Of a stretch of DNA of 64,000 nt, positions 2,905 to 56,409 are shown one piece after another. The DNA comes from an uncultured Lachnospiraceae bacterium (GTDB lineage: Bacteria > Bacillota > Clostridia > Lachnospirales > Lachnospiraceae). The notes below the pieces were generated by a model. That model did not search any database, had not been told where the DNA came from, and saw only the letters and a program-made list of their open reading frames with translations. How positions within the stretch are numbered: the stretch's first letter is position 1; each line of letters opens with the position of its first letter. The stretch lies in the NCBI GenBank assembly GCA_902781455.1, contig CACZJF010000008.1, positions 62,001 through 126,000 on the forward strand, written 5' to 3'. The position numbers and the translations under genes were made by a program.

Positions 2905-4500
2905 TTACTTCAACACCACATCAGATACATAGAAATCTGTGAAGCCGGCCCAGTGCGGTGTGAAGCTCTCTACACGATCCCCGATGCAGTACAGATGAAG
3001 GCTCTCAAACAGGGGCAGCCATGCAGCATCTTCCCCGATGATCTTCTCCTCCAGAGCCTGGTATTCCGCCTCGCGTTCCTGATCGTCAACAATTGAAGGC
3101 GCTGCGGCGACGCGGTCGATAATTTCCTTGTCCGGATAGTTCAGGCTTCTCTGCTTCGTATTCTTCTCACTTCCGTAGAAGGTATACATAATGTTGGCCG
3201 GGTCATTGTAATCCATGCCCCAGGTCGCGACGAAGGATTCCATCTCACCGCTGCTCCGAAGATCCAGCCAGGCTGCATGTTCGTAAGACTTGAGTTCTGC
3301 ATTGATTCCAACCTTCTTCAGCTGATCACAGATGTTCTGGCACACCAGCTGGATGTTGCCATCCGAAGAAGTGTCCATCGCGAGCTCAAAGGTAACCTCG
3401 TTCTCCTTGTATCCCGCTTCCTCCAGAAGCTTCTTCGCCCCTTCCGGATCGTAAGCGGCCGGCTCCAGCGCATCGTTGTGTCCCCAGATTCCGGTCGGAA
3501 TGATGCCGGCTTCCCGGTTGGCATTGCCGTTGTAGATACCATTGATCATATAGTCGACATCAACTGCCATGCTGATCGCCTTGCGCACGGAAGCATCCTT
3601 CAGGTATTTCTGGTTCTCATTGAATATCATGAAAGTCATGCCAACCTTCGGCGTACTCACGACCTGATCCGCATACATCGTCTTATAGGTGGATTCCACA
3701 ATGGCGGTATCCAGGGACTGCAGATCGATCAGGTCCAGCTCACCATTCTGGAACATCAGGTTCTGGGTGCTTGCGTCCGGAATGACACTGATGATGGCCT
3801 TCTTCACGGTTGGCTCGTCCCCCCAGTACTTCGGGTTGTACTCCAACGTGTAATGGTCATTGGCCACCCATTCCGTCACGACGTAAGGTCCGCTGCCGAT
3901 GGTGTCCGCCGGATCCGTACCGAAGCCCTTCACACTCTCCATCGTCTCCGCGTCAACAATCGACATTGCCGGGGCAGACAATTCTGCGATGAAACCGGCA
4001 TTCGGCTTGCTCAGCGTGATAGAGAAATGCGTATCATCCTTCACCTGGAAGCCCTCCAGAGAATCAGCCTCCCCGCTCTCAACTGCATCCGCTCCGGCAA
4101 CCTCTTCCGGAATATCCATGTTCTCCTGACCCGCCTTCAGAAGGCGTTCAAAGGTGTACTGCACATCGCCTGCAGTCAGCGTATTGCCATTGGAAAACAC
4201 AACATCATCGCGTATCGTGAAATCATAGGTCAGGCCGTCCTCGCTCACTGTATAATCCGTACAGAGGCTTGGAATCTCCTTTGCGGTGCCGTCCACCAGC
4301 CTGGTCTCAAACAGGCGGTCGAACACATTCATGGGTACAAGATAGTTGTCAGTTGTCTTTGCCACATCCATCGTGGACATGTCATAGAGAACCGCAGTGC
4401 GGAGCAGGCCATCCGATGCCGGAGCAGCTCCGGCCGTGATTCCTGCGAGCATGCCGGACGTAAGCGCGGCAGCCATGATGACAGATATTTTTCTTCTCAT
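2905..4500 (-). CDS. ABC transporter substrate-binding protein, family 5 (DppA/OppA type)
   Basis: 531 residues. The start MRRKISVIMAAALTSG begins a Sec signal peptide ending near AGAAPA; there is no lipobox Cys, unusual for a Gram-positive binding protein. The body has the family 5 pattern: LYDMSTMDVAKTTDN at the mature N terminus, DYTVSEDGLTYDFTIRDDVVFSNG around residue 90, and FNENQKYLKDASVRKAISMAVD around residue 300. Expected role: extracellular binding of oligopeptides or similar solutes. No permease or ATPase gene is adjacent, so it must use a transporter encoded elsewhere. The ATG at 4500 has an AAAGGGGA site. A Pro/Glu-coding frame lies just past the stop (see findings). Confidence 0.9.
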   Translation of the reverse strand: MRRKISVIMAAALTSGMLAGITAGAAPASDGLLRTAVLYDMSTMDVAKTTDNYLVPMNVFDRLFETRLVDGTAKEIPSLCTDYTVSEDGLTYDFTIRDDVVFSNGNTLTAGDVQYTFERLLKAGQENMDIPEEVAGADAVESGEADSLEGFQVKDDTHFSITLSKPNAGFIAELSAPAMSIVDAETMESVKGFGTDPADTIGSGPYVVTEWVANDHYTLEYNPKYWGDEPTVKKAIISVIPDASTQNLMFQNGELDLIDLQSLDTAIVESTYKTMYADQVVSTPKVGMTFMIFNENQKYLKDASVRKAISMAVDVDYMINGIYNGNANREAGIIPTGIWGHNDALEPAAYDPEGAKKLLEEAGYKENEVTFELAMDTSSDGNIQLVCQNICDQLKKVGINAELKSYEHAAWLDLRSSGEMESFVATWGMDYNDPANIMYTFYGSEKNTKQRSLNYPDKEIIDRVAAAPSIVDDQEREAEYQALEEKIIGEDAAWLPLFESLHLYCIGDRVESFTPHWAGFTDFYVSDVVLK

Positions 4501-44632: not shown

Positions 44633-45508
44633 TTAACCCTTTGTTATCTTTTTGTGTATCGTGTTCAATACCTTCTTTTTGTTCCTGACCCAGTCAGGCG
44701 CGACCAGCAGATTCCCCGGCCCATCCCCGGTCATACGATGGAGAATCATCTCTTCCGGAAGCAGCCGGATGCTTTCGGCCACGAGGTCCGTATACTCCTC
44801 CATCGAAAGAAGCGGAAAAGGATGCTCTTCATACTGCTGCGCCAGCAAGGTTCCTTTCAGGATATTCAGCATCTGCAGCTTGATACCGTCCGGTGCAGGA
44901 TCCAGACCGGCAAGGTAACGAATGGTCTGCAGCATGTCGTCCCTGGTCTCTCCCGGCAGACCGAAAATCACATGAACGACCACCTGGATGCCGGCGGACC
45001 TCAGCTTTCCGAGCGCCTCCTCAAATATGGTCCGTGAATAGCCCCTGTTCATCCGGGCGGCGGTTTCATCATGCATCGTCTGAAGTCCCAGTTCCACCCA
45101 GACCGGCTTGATCTGATTCAGGCGCCGCAGCATGTTCATCACATCCTCCCCCAGACAGTCCGGCCTTGTTCCGATGGAGAGGATCACGATGTCGTCACGA
45201 CGGATCACCTTCTCATACAGTTTCGTCAGACGGTCAACGTCCCCGTAGGTGTTGGTAAAGGACTGGAAATAGGCGATAAACCTCTTTGCGCTGACTTTCT
45301 TCCGGATGCGCTCCTTCGCCTCCTCCATCTGTACCTCGATCTCATCTGCAGAAGCTGCGAATTCGCCCGATCCTCCTTCCGAGCAAAATGCGCACCCGCC
45401 ACGTCCAACCGTTCCATCCCGGTTCGGGCAGGTACAGCCGGAAGTGAGGGAGAGCTTATAGATCTTCTCTCCGTATTGTTGTTTCAGGGCATTAGAGAGC
45501 ATCCGCAT
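44633..45508 (-). CDS. TIGR01212-family radical SAM protein (YhcC-like)
   Basis: 291 residues. The unusual Cys cluster SGCTCPNRDGTVGRGGCAFC is characteristic of TIGR01212, followed by FIAYFQSFTNTYGDVDRLTK and PVWVELGLQTMHDETA. Radical SAM enzymes use an iron-sulfur cluster to generate a 5'-deoxyadenosyl radical; the substrate of this family is not known to me. The start is ATG 45508, overlapping the lipase end by 17 bases; ATG 45502 and 45541 are alternatives. Confidence 0.88.
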   Translation of the reverse strand: MRMLSNALKQQYGEKIYKLSLTSGCTCPNRDGTVGRGGCAFCSEGGSGEFAASADEIEVQMEEAKERIRKKVSAKRFIAYFQSFTNTYGDVDRLTKLYEKVIRRDDIVILSIGTRPDCLGEDVMNMLRRLNQIKPVWVELGLQTMHDETAARMNRGYSRTIFEEALGKLRSAGIQVVVHVIFGLPGETRDDMLQTIRYLAGLDPAPDGIKLQMLNILKGTLLAQQYEEHPFPLLSMEEYTDLVAESIRLLPEEMILHRMTGDGPGNLLVAPDWVRNKKKVLNTIHKKITKG

Positions 45509-46721
45509 AGGCCAGATATATCTCCATACGATGAGCGTCATTGATCTTCTGATGCAGCCCTCCGTCTTTCACAAAAATGGAGGTCATATCAAAGTATACT
45601 TTATCACTTTCCGCGTATCTCAACATGTTTTTTACACCGTCTCCCTCATAAAGAATGTGCTTTGTCATGGCCAGCGCAAGCCCTTTCTGAAAGTATTCCT
45701 GCGGAGAAACCGATGTTTTTTTCTTTTCATGCCTGGGCGTAAAAAAGCCTTCTTTTTCGTAGCTGCAGGACTTCCGGAATAGATCGATCAGCTTGTTCCG
45801 CTTATTCACGGTGTATCCCGCAAATCTCTTCTGCCCTGTATAGTTCTTAAATTTATCCGCCATCAGATGGTTGATATCAAAAGTAACAGTCACTCCATTC
45901 TTTCCGTAATTCCAGTCATCGCATTCATTTCCCGGCGGAATACATGGAACAAAATCACCATTGTTCGAGATATTTACAATTCTTGGGGTTTCAACGCAGA
46001 CATCGGAATAAGCCACATTAGGGACAGCAAAACCGTACGCAAACACTTTACACGCGCCTTTGTCAATATAATGTCGGGCAACAAGATTTGTCAGCGCGCC
46101 TCCTCTGCTGTGCCCTGTAACCCACAGCAGATCGCCGGTTCCCGGAGCATAAGTCTGATCCAGATACTGAACCACTTCTGCAAAGGCCAGTTGAAATCCT
46201 TCATGTGTTTCACCATGCCCGAGATTGAAATTACTGATCCATTCAAGGCCGCCTTTACTGTATCCGCTGATGATAACAGCAATGATTCTGCTATGATCAG
46301 AGACCCTTTTCACCCCGGTGTAAACCAGACAGTGATCATTATCTTCCAGAGTGCTTTCTTTTCCCTTGCCCGTATAGTGCTGCTCAACTCTGCCAAAACC
46401 CGCATCTTTCAGATATTTCTCTGTAGAATCCCCATAGGTGGATGCGGACGCCAGGGCCGATGCCTTCAGCAAGCCTGCATTATCCCGGACATTATCCTGA
46501 TCAAAGTAATGATCGGAGTACCATTCGCCTGCTGCTCTTTTTTCCGGGTTAATAACAGAAGAAATCATTATCTCATCTGCAATATAAGTTCCTTCTGATG
46601 AGGCGGCATCAGCCCGTAAAAATGAATTGCTGATCAGGGCCGCTGTCATAATCAAAACGAGCAGTCCATGCCAGCTGCGGCGGCATGGATCTGTGCTTTT
46701 TTTCGTCCTGCCGACTGTCAT
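45492..46721 (-). CDS. Secreted class-3-type lipase
   Basis: 409 residues. A signal peptide (GLLVLIMTAALISNSFLRAD) is followed by an alpha/beta-hydrolase domain: SEKYLKDAGF near 90, VIISGYSKGG and the nucleophile motif WVTGHSRGGALTNLVARHY (G-H-S-R-G). RIVNISNNGDFVPCIPPGNE and VTVTFDINHLM would hold the Asp and His of the triad. It should hydrolyse acylglycerols or related esters outside the cell. The ATG at 46721 with GAGGGTG is preferred over 46772 (weak site). Confidence 0.85.
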   Translation of the reverse strand: MTVGRTKKSTDPCRRSWHGLLVLIMTAALISNSFLRADAASSEGTYIADEIMISSVINPEKRAAGEWYSDHYFDQDNVRDNAGLLKASALASASTYGDSTEKYLKDAGFGRVEQHYTGKGKESTLEDNDHCLVYTGVKRVSDHSRIIAVIISGYSKGGLEWISNFNLGHGETHEGFQLAFAEVVQYLDQTYAPGTGDLLWVTGHSRGGALTNLVARHYIDKGACKVFAYGFAVPNVAYSDVCVETPRIVNISNNGDFVPCIPPGNECDDWNYGKNGVTVTFDINHLMADKFKNYTGQKRFAGYTVNKRNKLIDLFRKSCSYEKEGFFTPRHEKKKTSVSPQEYFQKGLALAMTKHILYEGDGVKNMLRYAESDKVYFDMTSIFVKDGGLHQKINDAHRMEIYLAYADAL

Positions 46722-46774
46722 CGTTTCACCCTCAGTACTCACACTGCGCTTCTTTGGCGTTGCTGCTTCCATGA

Positions 46775-48034
46775 TCACCCTTTTGTCTCCACCCGGACTC
46801 TTCCTTTCTGGATTCTGTCCAGAAAGAATTCTTTGACGGAGCACCCTGCCCGGCCGGAGGAAGCGCAGGCGCAGGCACAGGCACAGCTCGAGGCGCAGGC
46901 GCAGCTGGAAGCACAGGAAGACGCGCACGAAGAGTGTGACCTGCCGGAGCCTGAGGAATGCCGGCGTCCGGAAGAAATGTGTACGGGCACCGGGATCACG
47001 TTGACGTGTATGTATGTGTTCGGGGAGTTCCCGTACCTGTAGGTTCCTGCTTTCCTGTAGGCAGACGGCTGTTCCAGATCCTTCTCTTCGACGATTTCCT
47101 TGCTTTTGATCATACTGCGTCCGCAGTACGGACAATTGTCCTTTCCCTCTTGCCTGCCGGCACCGCAGCCGGGGCAGGTTTCATAATATACGATCTTGGT
47201 GCGGACGATCTTTTTCCCGGCGGAGCCGGAGGAGGAACTGCCGAAACCAAGCCCGCTGGCGATCCAGCGGATGAACTTTACGATCACCATGATGGGGACC
47301 ACGACAAAGAAGAACAGTACAACCAGAGCGCCGATGAGCATCGAAAAACTGAAACCATCGCCGGTGCTTCTTTGCTTCGTGCCGCCCGCCTGCCGGTCCG
47401 CGGAGAAGGCAAATGCATCATTGGGATAAGTGACGGAGATGGTGAAGCGGCCGCCCGGCACAAGGGCATCGGAAAAGACAAGGTAACTGCCGTCGATCAG
47501 GCAGTCCGGCTGCCAGGCACCGGCCTTGTCCGCGTTCCACCGGATGGTCAGATCCTTGACGGCAATCCCGTCAAACCATGCCGGAGTAAAGGCAAACACC
47601 GTCTCCCCCTCGACATAGCGGTCAATCTGGTACATGTGGTCCTGGACAAAGGAAAATTCGAAGCTGGCCACCTCGTTTTTGTAATAATCGCGGTCCAGGT
47701 AGACAGCCAGAGAATTCCCCTTGTCTTCGATCCGGCTGATGCTGCTTCCAAGCGCAGTGACGCCGGAATGGTGGCTGTTGGGCAGACCGATGTCAACCCA
47801 TGTCAGAGGACCGTAGCGTTCATCGTCCAGCACCTTCCAGTCAATCTGATAGGTCATCCGGAGAGAAGCATCCTCCTGTACGTCTACGGTAATATGAAAA
47901 TGCTCGATCTCATCAGTGGGATCCGCGGCCATCGCTGACACTGTGCCGAAGCACAGAATGCCCAATCCAAGCATCAGCCAAAGCACCGCAGTCAGAATCG
48001 CGGGAGGTGTTATCGTTTTTGTATTCCGTGTCAT
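46775..48034 (-). CDS. DUF2207-like membrane protein with zinc ribbon and Cys-Ala-Ser-rich tail
   Basis: 419 residues. A signal peptide (about 1-37), a beta-rich extracellular domain (about 38-200: IEHFHITVDVQEDASLRMTY, YVEGETVFAFTPAWFDGI), one membrane helix (IGALVVLFFFVVVPIMVIVK), a cytoplasmic zinc ribbon (CPGCGAGRQEGKDNCPYCG) and a tail. The tail (about 368-398) runs SSCASSCASSC, then ACASSCACACAC and ASSGRAGCS, with nine Cys, before SVKEFFLDR. The ATG overlaps the stop of the radical SAM gene by one base (TGATG) with AGGAGG upstream. The tail is a likely substrate for that enzyme. I recall tails ending in GRAGCS in other Clostridia but have not verified it. Confidence 0.82.
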   Translation of the reverse strand: MTRNTKTITPPAILTAVLWLMLGLGILCFGTVSAMAADPTDEIEHFHITVDVQEDASLRMTYQIDWKVLDDERYGPLTWVDIGLPNSHHSGVTALGSSISRIEDKGNSLAVYLDRDYYKNEVASFEFSFVQDHMYQIDRYVEGETVFAFTPAWFDGIAVKDLTIRWNADKAGAWQPDCLIDGSYLVFSDALVPGGRFTISVTYPNDAFAFSADRQAGGTKQRSTGDGFSFSMLIGALVVLFFFVVVPIMVIVKFIRWIASGLGFGSSSSGSAGKKIVRTKIVYYETCPGCGAGRQEGKDNCPYCGRSMIKSKEIVEEKDLEQPSAYRKAGTYRYGNSPNTYIHVNVIPVPVHISSGRRHSSGSGRSHSSCASSCASSCACASSCACACACASSGRAGCSVKEFFLDRIQKGRVRVETKG

Positions 48035-49431
48035 CAGCAATACCTCCTGAGGGGACATTCTCCGGTCATCAGCGCAGAAAAGGCACGGCGTTCTTTGCAC
48101 GGCGCGCTTTCCCAGATTCTGTTCCAGTCATCCTGAAGCATGTTTCCGAGCGGCTGGCCGGAGAGCCAGCTCTGGCAGGGAATCACATTTCCCCCGGGCG
48201 AAACCGCCATATTGGAGAGGCAGGCACCGCAGGAAGGGGAAGGAATGTTCAGCTCTTCAAACACCTGCCCGTCCAGCCAGCCGGGGGACGTGAATGCGAT
48301 CTCCATACCGTTCTGATGGCAGAAGGAAACCGCCCGGCGAAGAATGTCCTCCATCTCCTCCTTCTTCAGCTGCAGCGCCTCGGAAGCGGGGGTGGCCGCG
48401 CTTCCTGTCGTGATCAGGCCGGAACATGTCACATAGACCACGCCGAGCCGGTGCAGGAGCTCCAGCGTTTTTTCATACTCCCGGTTGAGTGTGCACAAAG
48501 GCGTATTGATGCTCACTGACAGATTCTGCGCCAGCGCGTTCTGAATCCCGGCAAAGGTTTCCTCATAACGATCTGCACCCACCAGGCGGTTATGCACCGC
48601 GGGGTCAGCAGAGTAGAAGGTGATCTGTACACTGTCCAGCTCCGCTTCTCGAAGCTTCCTGCAGTAGTCAGGCGTCAGCCGGATTCCGTTGGTGTTCAGG
48701 CGGGAGATAAACCAGCGGGCATGCGCGATGAGCTCGATCAGGTCCTCGCGCATCGTCGGCTCTCCGCCTGTGAAGGTCACCTGCGGAATGCCGGCACTGC
48801 GGCAGCGATCCAGAATCTTCTTCCAGTCATCGGCAGACAGTTCCTCCTCGCCGGACAGCGTCTGCCCCGCGGCATAGCAGTGCACGCATCTTTGGTTGCA
48901 GTGCCAGGCGCCATCCTTTGTCATGGCACTGACCATCAGATCCATCCTGTGAGGCGCCCTCATGAACGGCGCGTAATCCCCGATGCTCATGTACTGCACT
49001 TTGGTGGTGACTTCCTCGCGGTAAGCGATCTGCCGGATCGTCGTATAGATCGTCTGAATATCCTTCTGTATCCGTTTCAGGGAAAGGACCGGTATGATCC
49101 GGTGCACATTGCCGGCGGTCCGGTCCAGGATCTTCTGAATGTCTGTCTGGTCAATCTGCATGCCGTCATAATGGTTGGTCTCACGAATAAGTTCTGCCAG
49201 GATGACTGCCCAGATAAAATTGACCGGCAGGATATCCGTGCCGTTGATAATAGCAACGCTTGGGCCGAATGCATGATCCTCTGTCTTCGGGGGAATCAGG
49301 TGGACACGGATAGCGCCGGGGCCGTCCGGGTTCAGAGTCGTGTGAAGCACTTCGCTGAAAGCAGAGTCCATGTAGGCTTTCAGGCTGCGAACCGTCCTGG
49401 TGCTGCGAAATAAAACGGGTATGTTGGTCAT
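48034..49431 (-). CDS. Radical SAM/SPASM-domain enzyme
   Basis: 465 residues. Residues 1-160 are an N-terminal domain without Cys clusters (possible substrate-recognition part, RiPP-recognition-like by analogy only). The radical SAM cluster is C178-C182-C185 in AWHCNQRCVHCYAAGQ, followed by VTFTGGEPTMREDLIEL. The C-terminal SPASM-like region has CGACLSNMAVSPGGNVIPCQSW and ends CPLRRYC, room for one or two auxiliary clusters. Such enzymes modify peptides or proteins. It is coupled to the ribokinase-like gene (ATGA) and, by a one-base overlap, to the Cys-Ala-Ser tail protein. Confidence 0.88.
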   Translation of the reverse strand: MTNIPVLFRSTRTVRSLKAYMDSAFSEVLHTTLNPDGPGAIRVHLIPPKTEDHAFGPSVAIINGTDILPVNFIWAVILAELIRETNHYDGMQIDQTDIQKILDRTAGNVHRIIPVLSLKRIQKDIQTIYTTIRQIAYREEVTTKVQYMSIGDYAPFMRAPHRMDLMVSAMTKDGAWHCNQRCVHCYAAGQTLSGEEELSADDWKKILDRCRSAGIPQVTFTGGEPTMREDLIELIAHARWFISRLNTNGIRLTPDYCRKLREAELDSVQITFYSADPAVHNRLVGADRYEETFAGIQNALAQNLSVSINTPLCTLNREYEKTLELLHRLGVVYVTCSGLITTGSAATPASEALQLKKEEMEDILRRAVSFCHQNGMEIAFTSPGWLDGQVFEELNIPSPSCGACLSNMAVSPGGNVIPCQSWLSGQPLGNMLQDDWNRIWESAPCKERRAFSALMTGECPLRRYC

Positions 49432-54102: not shown

Positions 54103-56409
54103 TCAATCCACCAGCCGGCACATCAGGCTTCCGGTCTCCTCTCGCAGCATCTGATTCGCCTCGTCAAACAACGGTTTTGCCTCTTCGTTATACTGGCCGG
54201 CTCTTGTGTCTGTCTCCATATTCCGGTAGATGACCTCCTCCTGGCTTAGCGGCGTGCCATCGGACCAGGCCGGGATATGCCCTTTTGAGATTGTGTCAAA
54301 CCAGACACGGTATTTCCCGTCTTCTCCGCGTTCATACAGAAGCACCGGACAGGACGCGGAAAGATCCCTGCCCATCTCCTCCACCTTCTGGTCCGGGGCA
54401 GGCGAAACGCCTTCCACAGGAAAATGCACCATGGATGCACCGATGATGTTCCCCGGGAAAAACGCTGCCGTCTTCTCTGAAAGGGGAGGCAGTGCGCAGC
54501 GGTCGTACGGCTGGTGCAGAAAATCATACTCCTCCAGGTTGAACAGATATCCGTCATGCGCGATCATGTTCCAGCTGTGCGCGCGTTCATCGTTCTCTGG
54601 CGGATTGGCCACCTGCATGCTGGGAAGCCCTGCAAGGTACATCAGATAGCAGAAATAGCTCGCATTGTAGGAACACATGCCCCGCTTCCTGAGAAGCAGC
54701 ATCATCCAGTCCGTCTTCCCTGCCTCCACAGCACTGACAAATCCTTCAAACAGACTGTTCTTGCTGAAGTATTCCGCGCCGTAATTCAGGATGGCTGTCA
54801 GCGCTGCCTCCGTCGGGTCAGCGATTTCCGCCTGGCAGGGCTCCAGATATTGCTCAAGAAACACCTTCAGATCCGGCTGGGTCAGGCAGAGAGCACGCTC
54901 CGTCTCCAGAGGCAGCTCCCCCGGCTGATAGCAGCTGCCCTGATAATAGAAATGCTGGTCAATATCCGTCAGATAGAGGCCGTCCGTTTCGGGAAGGACA
55001 TAAAGAAAAATACTGTATTCGTCCTCTTTATATTCAGGTGCTCCTGAAATGTCCGCTTCAATCAGCACCTCTCCTTTCTGATGCGCTGTCAGCATTCCGT
55101 TCTCATCAATCGACAGTACCTCCGGATCACTGCTTTTGTAGGTCACCTGCAGCTGTGGATAAGCAGAATAAGGCGTCCATCTGTGCGTCTGCCCCACGTG
55201 AATCGATCCGATGTCATAGCTGTAATCCACCTCCGGTACTTCCTCTGTTTCTGCCTCCGCCTCTTCTCTCTCCGCCTCCGTTTCTTCCTCCGCTTCTTCC
55301 ACCTCCCCAGACTGCGCAAGTGCAGCGTCCAGTGCCGGAAGATATTCCTCTACATGGGCACCACGGATCGGTTCGACGATCGTCCGGCCATTGCTGTCAA
55401 AGAAGAACGAGGTCGGGTAGGTATCGGTAGGAAGCACCTGATCCAGGTCTTCAGGCGGTACAAGATTCAGGTAGCCGACACCGTTTTCTTCCAGAATCTC
55501 TTTGGCCAGCGCATCCTTTCCCTCCTGATTCGCGTCCAGACAGACGCCGACAATCTGACAGCCCTTCTGCCCGAATTCCTTCGAGAGTTCAGCGAGCTGA
55601 GGCATCTCCTTCTTGCAGGGATAGCACCAGGTCGCCCAAAGGTTGATCATCGTAACCTTGCTTCCGGCAAAAAGATCCTTACTGCTCACCGGATTGCCGT
55701 CCAGATCGGTCGTCTCAAAAGAAACCAGATCATCGGTGTCGGTCTGATCCGCTTCAGATTCTTCCTCGGGAGCGTGGAACGTCAGAGCCTGAAGGATGGT
55801 TTCGCGGTCGGACGCGAATTCTTCGAACTCCCTGAAGTACTCCTCACCCATCACTTCGCGGTACTCTTCCATGTTTTTCTCCAGCTCTGCGTACTGGCCG
55901 CCGAAGAAATTGTATTCCCCGTCACTTCCAAGCTTTTCAAGCCAGGCAAAGTCATCTTCGCGGGCACCGTTGCACTTCTTTAGTTCCGCGCGCAGTTCCT
56001 CCTCTCCGCGGCCTGCGTTGATGCTGAAGAAATCATAGAGATAGGCACTTTCCCGGTCGGTCATCCAGCTGGGATCGGGGGATGCAGGAGGTTCTTCCCC
56101 TGACATCAACGCTTCGTAAAACTTCTCAGAGTAATCATTGTAAGCGTCAAAGTTTTCCTCCGAAACAGCATAGTAAGATATCGTGAACTGAAAGACACCA
56201 TCTTCAAGGTCGTTCGCTCTTATGTCCAGGGTCCCCTTGAGATTCCGGTACTTCTCAGGAATCACAAAGTGGAAGCCATACTCCGGATTGTCAATCACGA
56301 AAGAATCGGCCTGCTTGGCTTCTTTCTCCGCTGCCGGGACAGATGTGCTGATCAAGGCCAGCAGCAGAATAGCCGTCAGTATGCAGAATGTTTTTTTCTT
56401 CATTATCAT
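54103..56409 (-). CDS. Secreted TlpA-thioredoxin / Big-like / transglutaminase-like fusion
   Basis: 768 residues. A signal peptide (FCILTAILLLALISTSVPAA) is followed by about 200 residues of unknown fold. Residues about 235-370 are a TlpA domain (MINLWATWCYPCKKEMPQLA, Cys-x-x-Cys active site). A Glu/Ala linker leads to a Big-2-like domain (YKSSDPEVLSIDENGMLTAH). The C-terminal part has a transglutaminase-like core: RKRGMCSYNASYFCYLMYLA (Cys), AHSWNMIAHDGYLFNLEEYD (His and acidic). Together this suggests thiol chemistry and peptide crosslinking or cleavage at the cell surface. AAAGGAG precedes the ATG. Confidence 0.82.
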   Translation of the reverse strand: MIMKKKTFCILTAILLLALISTSVPAAEKEAKQADSFVIDNPEYGFHFVIPEKYRNLKGTLDIRANDLEDGVFQFTISYYAVSEENFDAYNDYSEKFYEALMSGEEPPASPDPSWMTDRESAYLYDFFSINAGRGEEELRAELKKCNGAREDDFAWLEKLGSDGEYNFFGGQYAELEKNMEEYREVMGEEYFREFEEFASDRETILQALTFHAPEEESEADQTDTDDLVSFETTDLDGNPVSSKDLFAGSKVTMINLWATWCYPCKKEMPQLAELSKEFGQKGCQIVGVCLDANQEGKDALAKEILEENGVGYLNLVPPEDLDQVLPTDTYPTSFFFDSNGRTIVEPIRGAHVEEYLPALDAALAQSGEVEEAEEETEAEREEAEAETEEVPEVDYSYDIGSIHVGQTHRWTPYSAYPQLQVTYKSSDPEVLSIDENGMLTAHQKGEVLIEADISGAPEYKEDEYSIFLYVLPETDGLYLTDIDQHFYYQGSCYQPGELPLETERALCLTQPDLKVFLEQYLEPCQAEIADPTEAALTAILNYGAEYFSKNSLFEGFVSAVEAGKTDWMMLLLRKRGMCSYNASYFCYLMYLAGLPSMQVANPPENDERAHSWNMIAHDGYLFNLEEYDFLHQPYDRCALPPLSEKTAAFFPGNIIGASMVHFPVEGVSPAPDQKVEEMGRDLSASCPVLLYERGEDGKYRVWFDTISKGHIPAWSDGTPLSQEEVIYRNMETDTRAGQYNEEAKPLFDEANQMLREETGSLMCRLVD

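Follow-up and report, generated by a model that had tools for sequence, protein, structure and literature searches.

In a 64,000-nucleotide stretch of DNA from an uncultured Lachnospiraceae bacterium (assembly GCA_902781455.1, contig CACZJF010000008.1, positions 62,001 to 126,000), referred to here as the window, two genes on the minus strand encode a radical S-adenosylmethionine (SAM)/SPASM (Twitch-like) enzyme of 465 amino acids (48034..49431; assigned with Pfam and AlphaFold), which we propose to be a tail maturase, and a membrane protein of 419 amino acids with a Cys-Ala-rich tail (46775..48034; assigned from its translation, hydrophobic segments and AlphaFold), which we propose to be its substrate. 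The genes meet in a TGATG stop/start overlap visible in the sequence (48032..48036, minus strand), and, as the initial annotation had pointed out, a single base is common to the TGA of the enzyme gene and the ATG of the tail-protein gene (TGATGA). Because this base is shared and an AGGAGG lies just upstream of the ATG, the tail-protein gene was taken to span 46775..48034 and to encode the 419-residue protein. The pairing of the enzyme with the tailed protein is strongly supported, and we propose, with a probability of roughly 0.6, that the two genes form a post-translational modification cassette in which the Cys residues of the tail are modified repeatedly, probably to thioethers, and in which the tail remains part of the membrane protein.

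The enzyme matches the Pfam families Radical_SAM (PF04055) at 84.4 bits (cut-off, 29.5) and SPASM (PF13186) at 25.8 bits (cut-off, 21.5), which bears out its earlier assignment as a SPASM-type enzyme with C178, C182 and C185. These three residues form the CX3CX2C motif CNQRCVHC and are kept in 33 of 33 aligned enzymes. The late Cys clusters that had also been described are likewise conserved, with Cys 313, 401 and 419 present in all 33 sequences, Cys 459 in 32 and Cys 404 and 445 in 29. The enzymes of two further genomes (G259 and G333) have no Cys at the position of Cys 313, which is thus not universal. The set probably provides one radical SAM cluster and one auxiliary cluster. Among the best 25 of 66 matches, no curated NCBIfam family scored above its own cut-off; the top score was that of NirJ2 (103.6, against a cut-off of 500), and heme b synthase, MoaA and PqqE were also among the top scores, all far below their cut-offs. 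The closest solved relative in a PDB profile search was the sactisynthase SkfB (6efn; E = 3e-21).

The AlphaFold model of the enzyme has a mean predicted local distance difference test (pLDDT) score of 91.4 and a predicted template modeling (pTM) score of 0.89. Its N-terminal domain (about residues 1-165; 48937..49431, minus strand) is predicted to consist of helix 12-24, strands 29-33, 41-46, 58-62 and 66-70, and helices 72-86, 95-112 and 118-136. A sheet followed by three helices is the order of elements in a recognition element of ribosomally synthesized and post-translationally modified peptides (RiPP-recognition element [RRE]). Pfam searches with the N-terminal domains of five enzymes gave nothing convincing (best E = 0.07), and hhalign against 27 rows of the PqqD family gave a weak match (probability, 4%; E = 0.0097). 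In a PDB profile search with an alignment of this domain, the strong matches were radical SAM enzymes only; since the alignment held one full-length row, these matches were to the radical SAM core.

The tailed protein comprises, in order, a signal peptide, a beta-rich extracytoplasmic domain, one transmembrane helix, a zinc-ribbon domain and the tail; the signal peptide, the single helix, the zinc ribbon and the tail agree with the initial annotation (residue numbers of this protein and of its model are given here as the true protein number plus one). Its hydrophobic segments are the signal peptide (13-31) and the transmembrane segment (235-253). The AlphaFold model (mean pLDDT, 80.2; pTM, 0.53) shows a helix at the signal peptide (12-31), a beta-rich domain (42-205), a long helix (231-260) and, at about 274-350, an ordered small domain that contains the zinc-ribbon pattern; residues 360-418, in the tail, have pLDDT values below 50 and are predicted to be disordered. 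In the alignment of 40 tailed proteins (from loci such as L030, L065 and L080), the CPxCG..CPYCG pattern occurs in 24, those most like that of the window, and a short linker takes its place in the remaining 16. Pfam zinc ribbons match 8 of the 40 at E <= 0.01, and the window protein is not one of these. Aligned members range from 309 to 457 amino acids, and in 40 of 40 two hydrophobic segments precede the tail, consistent with the large membrane-protein substrate that had been suggested. Because there are two such segments, the first being a signal peptide or an anchor, the tail is probably on the cytoplasmic side of the membrane, the side on which the enzyme is expected. The extracytoplasmic domain is remotely like DUF2207 (PF09972), the domain of membrane proteins such as SMU.243 of Streptococcus mutans: seven of the 40 tailed proteins match this family at E <= 0.01, and that of the window scores 18.5 bits, below the Pfam cut-off of 24.4. 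A PDB profile search with the tailed protein found no convincing relative (best E = 0.21).

Co-occurrence of the enzyme and the tailed protein

The pairing was assessed from the side of the tail by scanning genome contigs with a DNA pattern for CACAxxGRAGC. This yielded at least 119 stretches, of which 13 were chance occurrences (in GC-rich genomes or in other reading frames) and 106 were real tails; all counts of loci and tails from this survey, here and below, are among the matches listed. The enzyme family was present within the locus in 85 of the 106 (lowest best score, 120.7 bits), 20 loci had no more than 300 bases of sequence ahead of the tail open reading frame (ORF), and a single locus, L062, had no enzyme despite 3.5 kb of upstream sequence. 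The initial annotation had named widespread tails without an adjacent radical SAM gene as evidence that would speak against its proposal; this was not seen, a single such tail having been found. For the 21 loci without an enzyme in the stretch itself, profile searches of the corresponding genomes found the enzyme in 17. The 87 tail ORFs in enzyme-bearing loci mostly lie directly downstream of the enzyme gene or overlap it (78 ORFs). In three the enzyme gene is downstream of the tail ORF (L036, L071 and L131), in one the two are divergent (L035), and five are 690 to 1,281 bases from the enzyme gene, namely, four short ORFs (L028, L066, L124 and L128) and the second tandem copy in L123. The loci are not independent species, and two of them (L049 and L054) come from one contig. 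Carriers belong to the Lachnospiraceae, Oscillospiraceae, other Clostridia, Eggerthellaceae, Bacilli and Anaeroplasma and include Gemmiger formicilis ATCC 27749 (L048) and Hungatella hathewayi (L114).

The same association is seen from the side of the enzyme. In a set of 393 genomes of the class, 381 of them at >=90% completeness and <=5% contamination, the enzyme profile matched in nine at E <= 1e-50. The tail-protein profile matched in 14 at E <= 1e-5, these being the nine enzyme genomes and five with weak partial matches (G065, G110, G133, G351 and G413; E = 2e-9 to 1e-5). No tail-like string was found at the five weak-match loci (L175-L179), and the tailed protein was found only in the nine genomes that carry the enzyme. 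The random odds of such a 9-of-9 overlap are 1 in 5.6e17, uncorrected for relatedness; the window and the pattern-scan loci supplied the sequences for both profiles, and at least one of the nine genomes (G338, apparently the source of L044) was among these. Of the 61 nearest genomes, three have the enzyme, and these three are also the ones with the tailed protein. The coupling of the two genes put forward in the initial annotation is strongly supported from both directions.

In six of the nine genomes (G000, G172, G315, G357, G338 and G265) the pair is adjacent, with two tail genes preceding the enzyme gene in G265. In G228 and G259, a contig end truncates the tail-protein gene next to the enzyme; another contig carries a full tailed protein in the former and a tail end in the latter. 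In G333 (L162, 663-4953) the tail gene is split by genes that look transposase-like by eye and adjoins an open enzyme frame. As a separate observation, the tail of G333 ends in VGGRVGCSERG, not GGGRAGCSxKD, and G259 (L185) has a similar variant end, GGGRVGCSERG, and a stop within its enzyme frame. DUF2207 itself is found in 150 of the 393 genomes, only four of which are among the nine with the enzyme; the enzyme is missing from the other 146. Therefore, the enzyme tracks the tail and not the ectodomain family.

Sequence and conservation of the tail

The C-terminal tail of the window protein, SSCASSCASSCACASSCACACACASSGRAGCS / SSCASSCASSCACASSCACACACASSGRAGCSVKEFF, contains nine Cys residues, as had been noted, eight of them in the repeat and one in GRAGC. 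Its core, SSCASSCASSCACASSCACACACASSGRAGC, holds all nine and was placed from the translation at 46841..46933 (minus strand). All 31 residues of this core are unchanged in a congener (G010), in which 16 of the 31 codons are different. Outside the core, 211 of 374 aligned residues (56%) are shared with this genome, and 111 of these 211 codons differ; the enzymes are 72% identical and the tailed proteins 63% over the matched part. Since silent changes are about as frequent in the tail as elsewhere and there are no residue changes in it, the tail is under purifying selection. A tail that arose by chance or by misreading was ruled out by the conservation of its residues despite the changed codons. 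On the opposite strand of the tail lies an ORF (46668-47042, plus strand) with repeats of the QAQAQAQLEAQ type, which is most likely no gene.

Tail statistics were compiled from 116 tails (L028-L146 and L156-L165; 81 distinct strings, duplicates kept). The tails have 4 to 10 Cys residues each. The 803 repeat Cys are followed by Ala in 777 cases, Val in 21, Phe in 3 and Gly in 2, and neighboring Cys are separated by A (526), ASS (79), AHSS (44) and a few others. The search pattern fixes CACAxxGRAGC, and the filter fixes a third CA, giving three Cys-Ala per tail, and [ST]. Because the search itself imposes these letters, their invariance is not evidence; among the 455 repeat Cys that the filter did not force, Ala is next after 429. 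The evidence proper, as far as the sequences go, lies in the longer CA runs, in the end of the tail and in the shared ectodomain. In 115 of the 116 tails, xK[DEN] follows the filter-forced [ST], and the same ectodomain is present on 86 of the 89 tail ORFs clear of contig or stretch edges, the remaining three being short ORFs. The conserved segment past the last Cys, [ST]xK[DE][FY]... (46808..46840, minus strand; from the alignment), in which K402 is unvarying in the 40 aligned tailed proteins, is a possible docking (follower) segment for the enzyme.

Genes around the pair

Over 12 kb, the window and the congener G010 share only the enzyme and tail genes and have other flanks; the flanks are shared between the window and another genome, G016. 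ORFs of >=90 amino acids from the 116 loci were clustered, and no third gene family common to most loci was found, although tiny genes could escape this approach. The commonest neighboring family, an ABC transporter judged by eye, occurs at 10 of the 116 loci in varied placement (upstream, downstream and on both strands). Nor was a protease or exporter gene common to most loci found among these ORFs. No small precursor peptide was found near the enzyme, ORFs of <90 amino acids not having been clustered; the conserved partner is the membrane protein.

Some loci have two or three tailed-protein genes, or pieces of them, per enzyme gene (L123, 1629-5851; L033, 3843-6495; L035, 2004-6117; L159, 1267-3206), as if one enzyme served several substrates. 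The gene just downstream of the pair in the window (45495-46775, minus strand) has a lipase-like GHSRGG motif by eye and no NCBIfam match at 1e-5; it is present in G016 and, in G010, was not seen next to the pair. Elsewhere in the window, a 768-amino-acid protein (54103-56409, minus strand) contains a TlpA/ResA-like thioredoxin region that scores below all listed NCBIfam cut-offs.

Proposed modification of the tail

Most radical SAM peptide chemistry studied in detail, as far as we know, concerns small peptides that are released. The pair described here would act like a radical SAM peptide maturase without the small-precursor feature. Since enzyme and tailed protein occur together so strictly, we infer that chemical alteration of the tail by the enzyme is very probable. 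In the mechanism that we envisage, the overlapping genes would yield both proteins, and the enzyme would recognize the C-terminal end of the tailed protein, perhaps via its RRE-like N-terminal domain, and proceed, in the cytoplasm, from unit to unit of the flexible (Cys-Ala)n tail. In every unit, a hydrogen would be taken by a 5'-deoxyadenosyl radical, with that on the alpha carbon of Ala the likeliest target (or others), and the Cys sulfur would bond at the radical carbon to give repeated thioethers. The product would stay attached, as a membrane-anchored, sulfur-crosslinked tail joined to the extracytoplasmic beta domain. Bond formation as thioethers, the place of docking and retention of the tail are likewise inferred. 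In a more specific form of this proposal, which we regard as rather unlikely, each Cys would be bonded to the alpha carbon of the adjacent Ala, producing a run of six-membered thiomorpholinone rings and hence a rigid, membrane-anchored poly-thioether rod. To our knowledge, there is no example of a protein backbone of this type; the single-ring precedent is enteropeptin, since acceptor and Cys adjoin there.

Several known systems resemble the pair in part. SkfB, which makes the sporulation killing factor, has a radical SAM core and a C-terminal Twitch/SPASM domain, as does the enzyme here, and excerpts of its structural description (PMC6231123) report an RRE made of a sheet followed by three helices, as in the N-terminal part of our AlphaFold model. 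However, the N-terminal domain here has no convincing sequence match to an RRE, and the substrate of SkfB is a small precursor peptide and not a 419-amino-acid membrane protein. Ruminococcin C1, with Ala12 as a thioether acceptor, and enteropeptin, with a six-membered thiomorpholine between neighboring N-methylornithine and Cys, contain thioethers from Cys to alpha carbons like those proposed here, according to passages of PMC12395415; these are released antibacterial peptides, whereas the product of the present pair would be an attached tail. QhpD, which acts on quinohemoprotein amine dehydrogenase, is described in part of PMC8326336 as a non-RiPP radical SAM enzyme with a protein substrate, in which it forms thioethers. 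The likeness to QhpD is one of concept, with no sequence comparison, and its bonds are Cys-Asp and Cys-Glu, in contrast to those proposed for a Cys-Ala-rich membrane-protein tail. Finally, in the TvgB system and an Asp-Cys repeat cluster, a short motif recurs along the precursors that accompany the radical SAM enzymes (PMC9062424, in extract), but these precursors are small peptides, and TvgB differs further, on the same extract, in its TVGG motif, its cyclopropylglycine product and its peptidase and transporter genes.

The enzyme may act on the tail and yield a product other than a thioether, such as epimerized Ala, C-C crosslinks, oxidized Cys or dehydro residues. SPASM enzymes catalyze many reactions, and the mixed NCBIfam scores far below cut-off would fit such an outcome, which we consider somewhat unlikely; the nearest solved sequence is that of a thioether maker, SkfB, and the tails vary in Cys number and spacing and yet keep Ala after most Cys. 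The tail could instead be a metallothionein-like module for metal or Fe-S binding or for redox reactions, with the enzyme supplying a cofactor or serving another step. Cys-x-Cys runs are able to bind soft metals, and a zinc-ribbon pattern lies ahead of the tail in the 24 proteins mentioned above. This explanation is unlikely in our estimation, as it gives no reason for the tail to be accompanied by the gene for a radical SAM enzyme and by none besides, and the xK[DEN] that follows the last Cys in nearly every tail would be needless for metal binding.

A further possibility, and a decidedly unlikely one, is that a small modified peptide is cleaved from the end of the membrane protein and set free, which would make the membrane protein the leader of a RiPP. 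SkfB, CteB and SuiB, related enzymes that have been studied structurally, act on small precursor peptides, as stated in portions of PMC6231123, and the ABC transporter family is the commonest neighbor. However, transporter loci are few and their placement is variable, and the tail is predicted to be cytoplasmic on a membrane protein. That the two genes are neighbors with no functional link is very unlikely, and the one tail without an enzyme, in L062, is what can be said for it; against it stand the presence of both genes in the same nine genomes, the 85 enzyme-bearing loci with 20 of the remainder cut by an edge, and the different flanks in the congener.

Several points weigh against the proposed thioether cassette. 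In addition to the exception in L062 (tail at 3631-4446), which is the one real exception to the pairing and has no enzyme match in its 1.7-Mb genome, three genomes (L068, L127 and L133) gave no enzyme match, their tail ORFs reaching the contig end. The L062 gene may be a remnant, because its ORF starts within the extracytoplasmic domain and has no signal-peptide end. The profile searches scored at most four candidates per genome, and the correlation between SPASM and tail-protein distances (r = 0.88; 0 of 1,000 shuffles; 25 pairs) fits the pairing but would arise in any two genes inherited together. The similarity to SkfB says little on chemistry, because SkfB is only the nearest solved sequence, and the reactions among the top NCBIfam scores are mixed. 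The N-terminal domain is perhaps an RRE, judging solely from the predicted order of its elements, and metal could be bound by a (CA)n tail in which no bond has formed. The case is known here from sequence and predicted structure alone.

No description of the pair or its motif was found in the open-access literature searched, subscription papers being mostly outside that scope, and the sole match to the tail motif strings was a PCR primer. As for the role in the cell, our guess is an envelope or stress function, because a DUF2207 protein of S. mutans (SMU.243) affects acid and peroxide tolerance; it is needed for these and for biofilm, according to part of PMC10457818. The pair is widespread in gut and rumen Clostridia and, as two genes, is tractable. 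If the proposed modification is correct, it would give a substrate, and hence a route to function, for an enzyme group that lies outside the listed NCBIfam families and would extend radical SAM chemistry to cell-envelope proteins, with up to ten Cys residues per tail.

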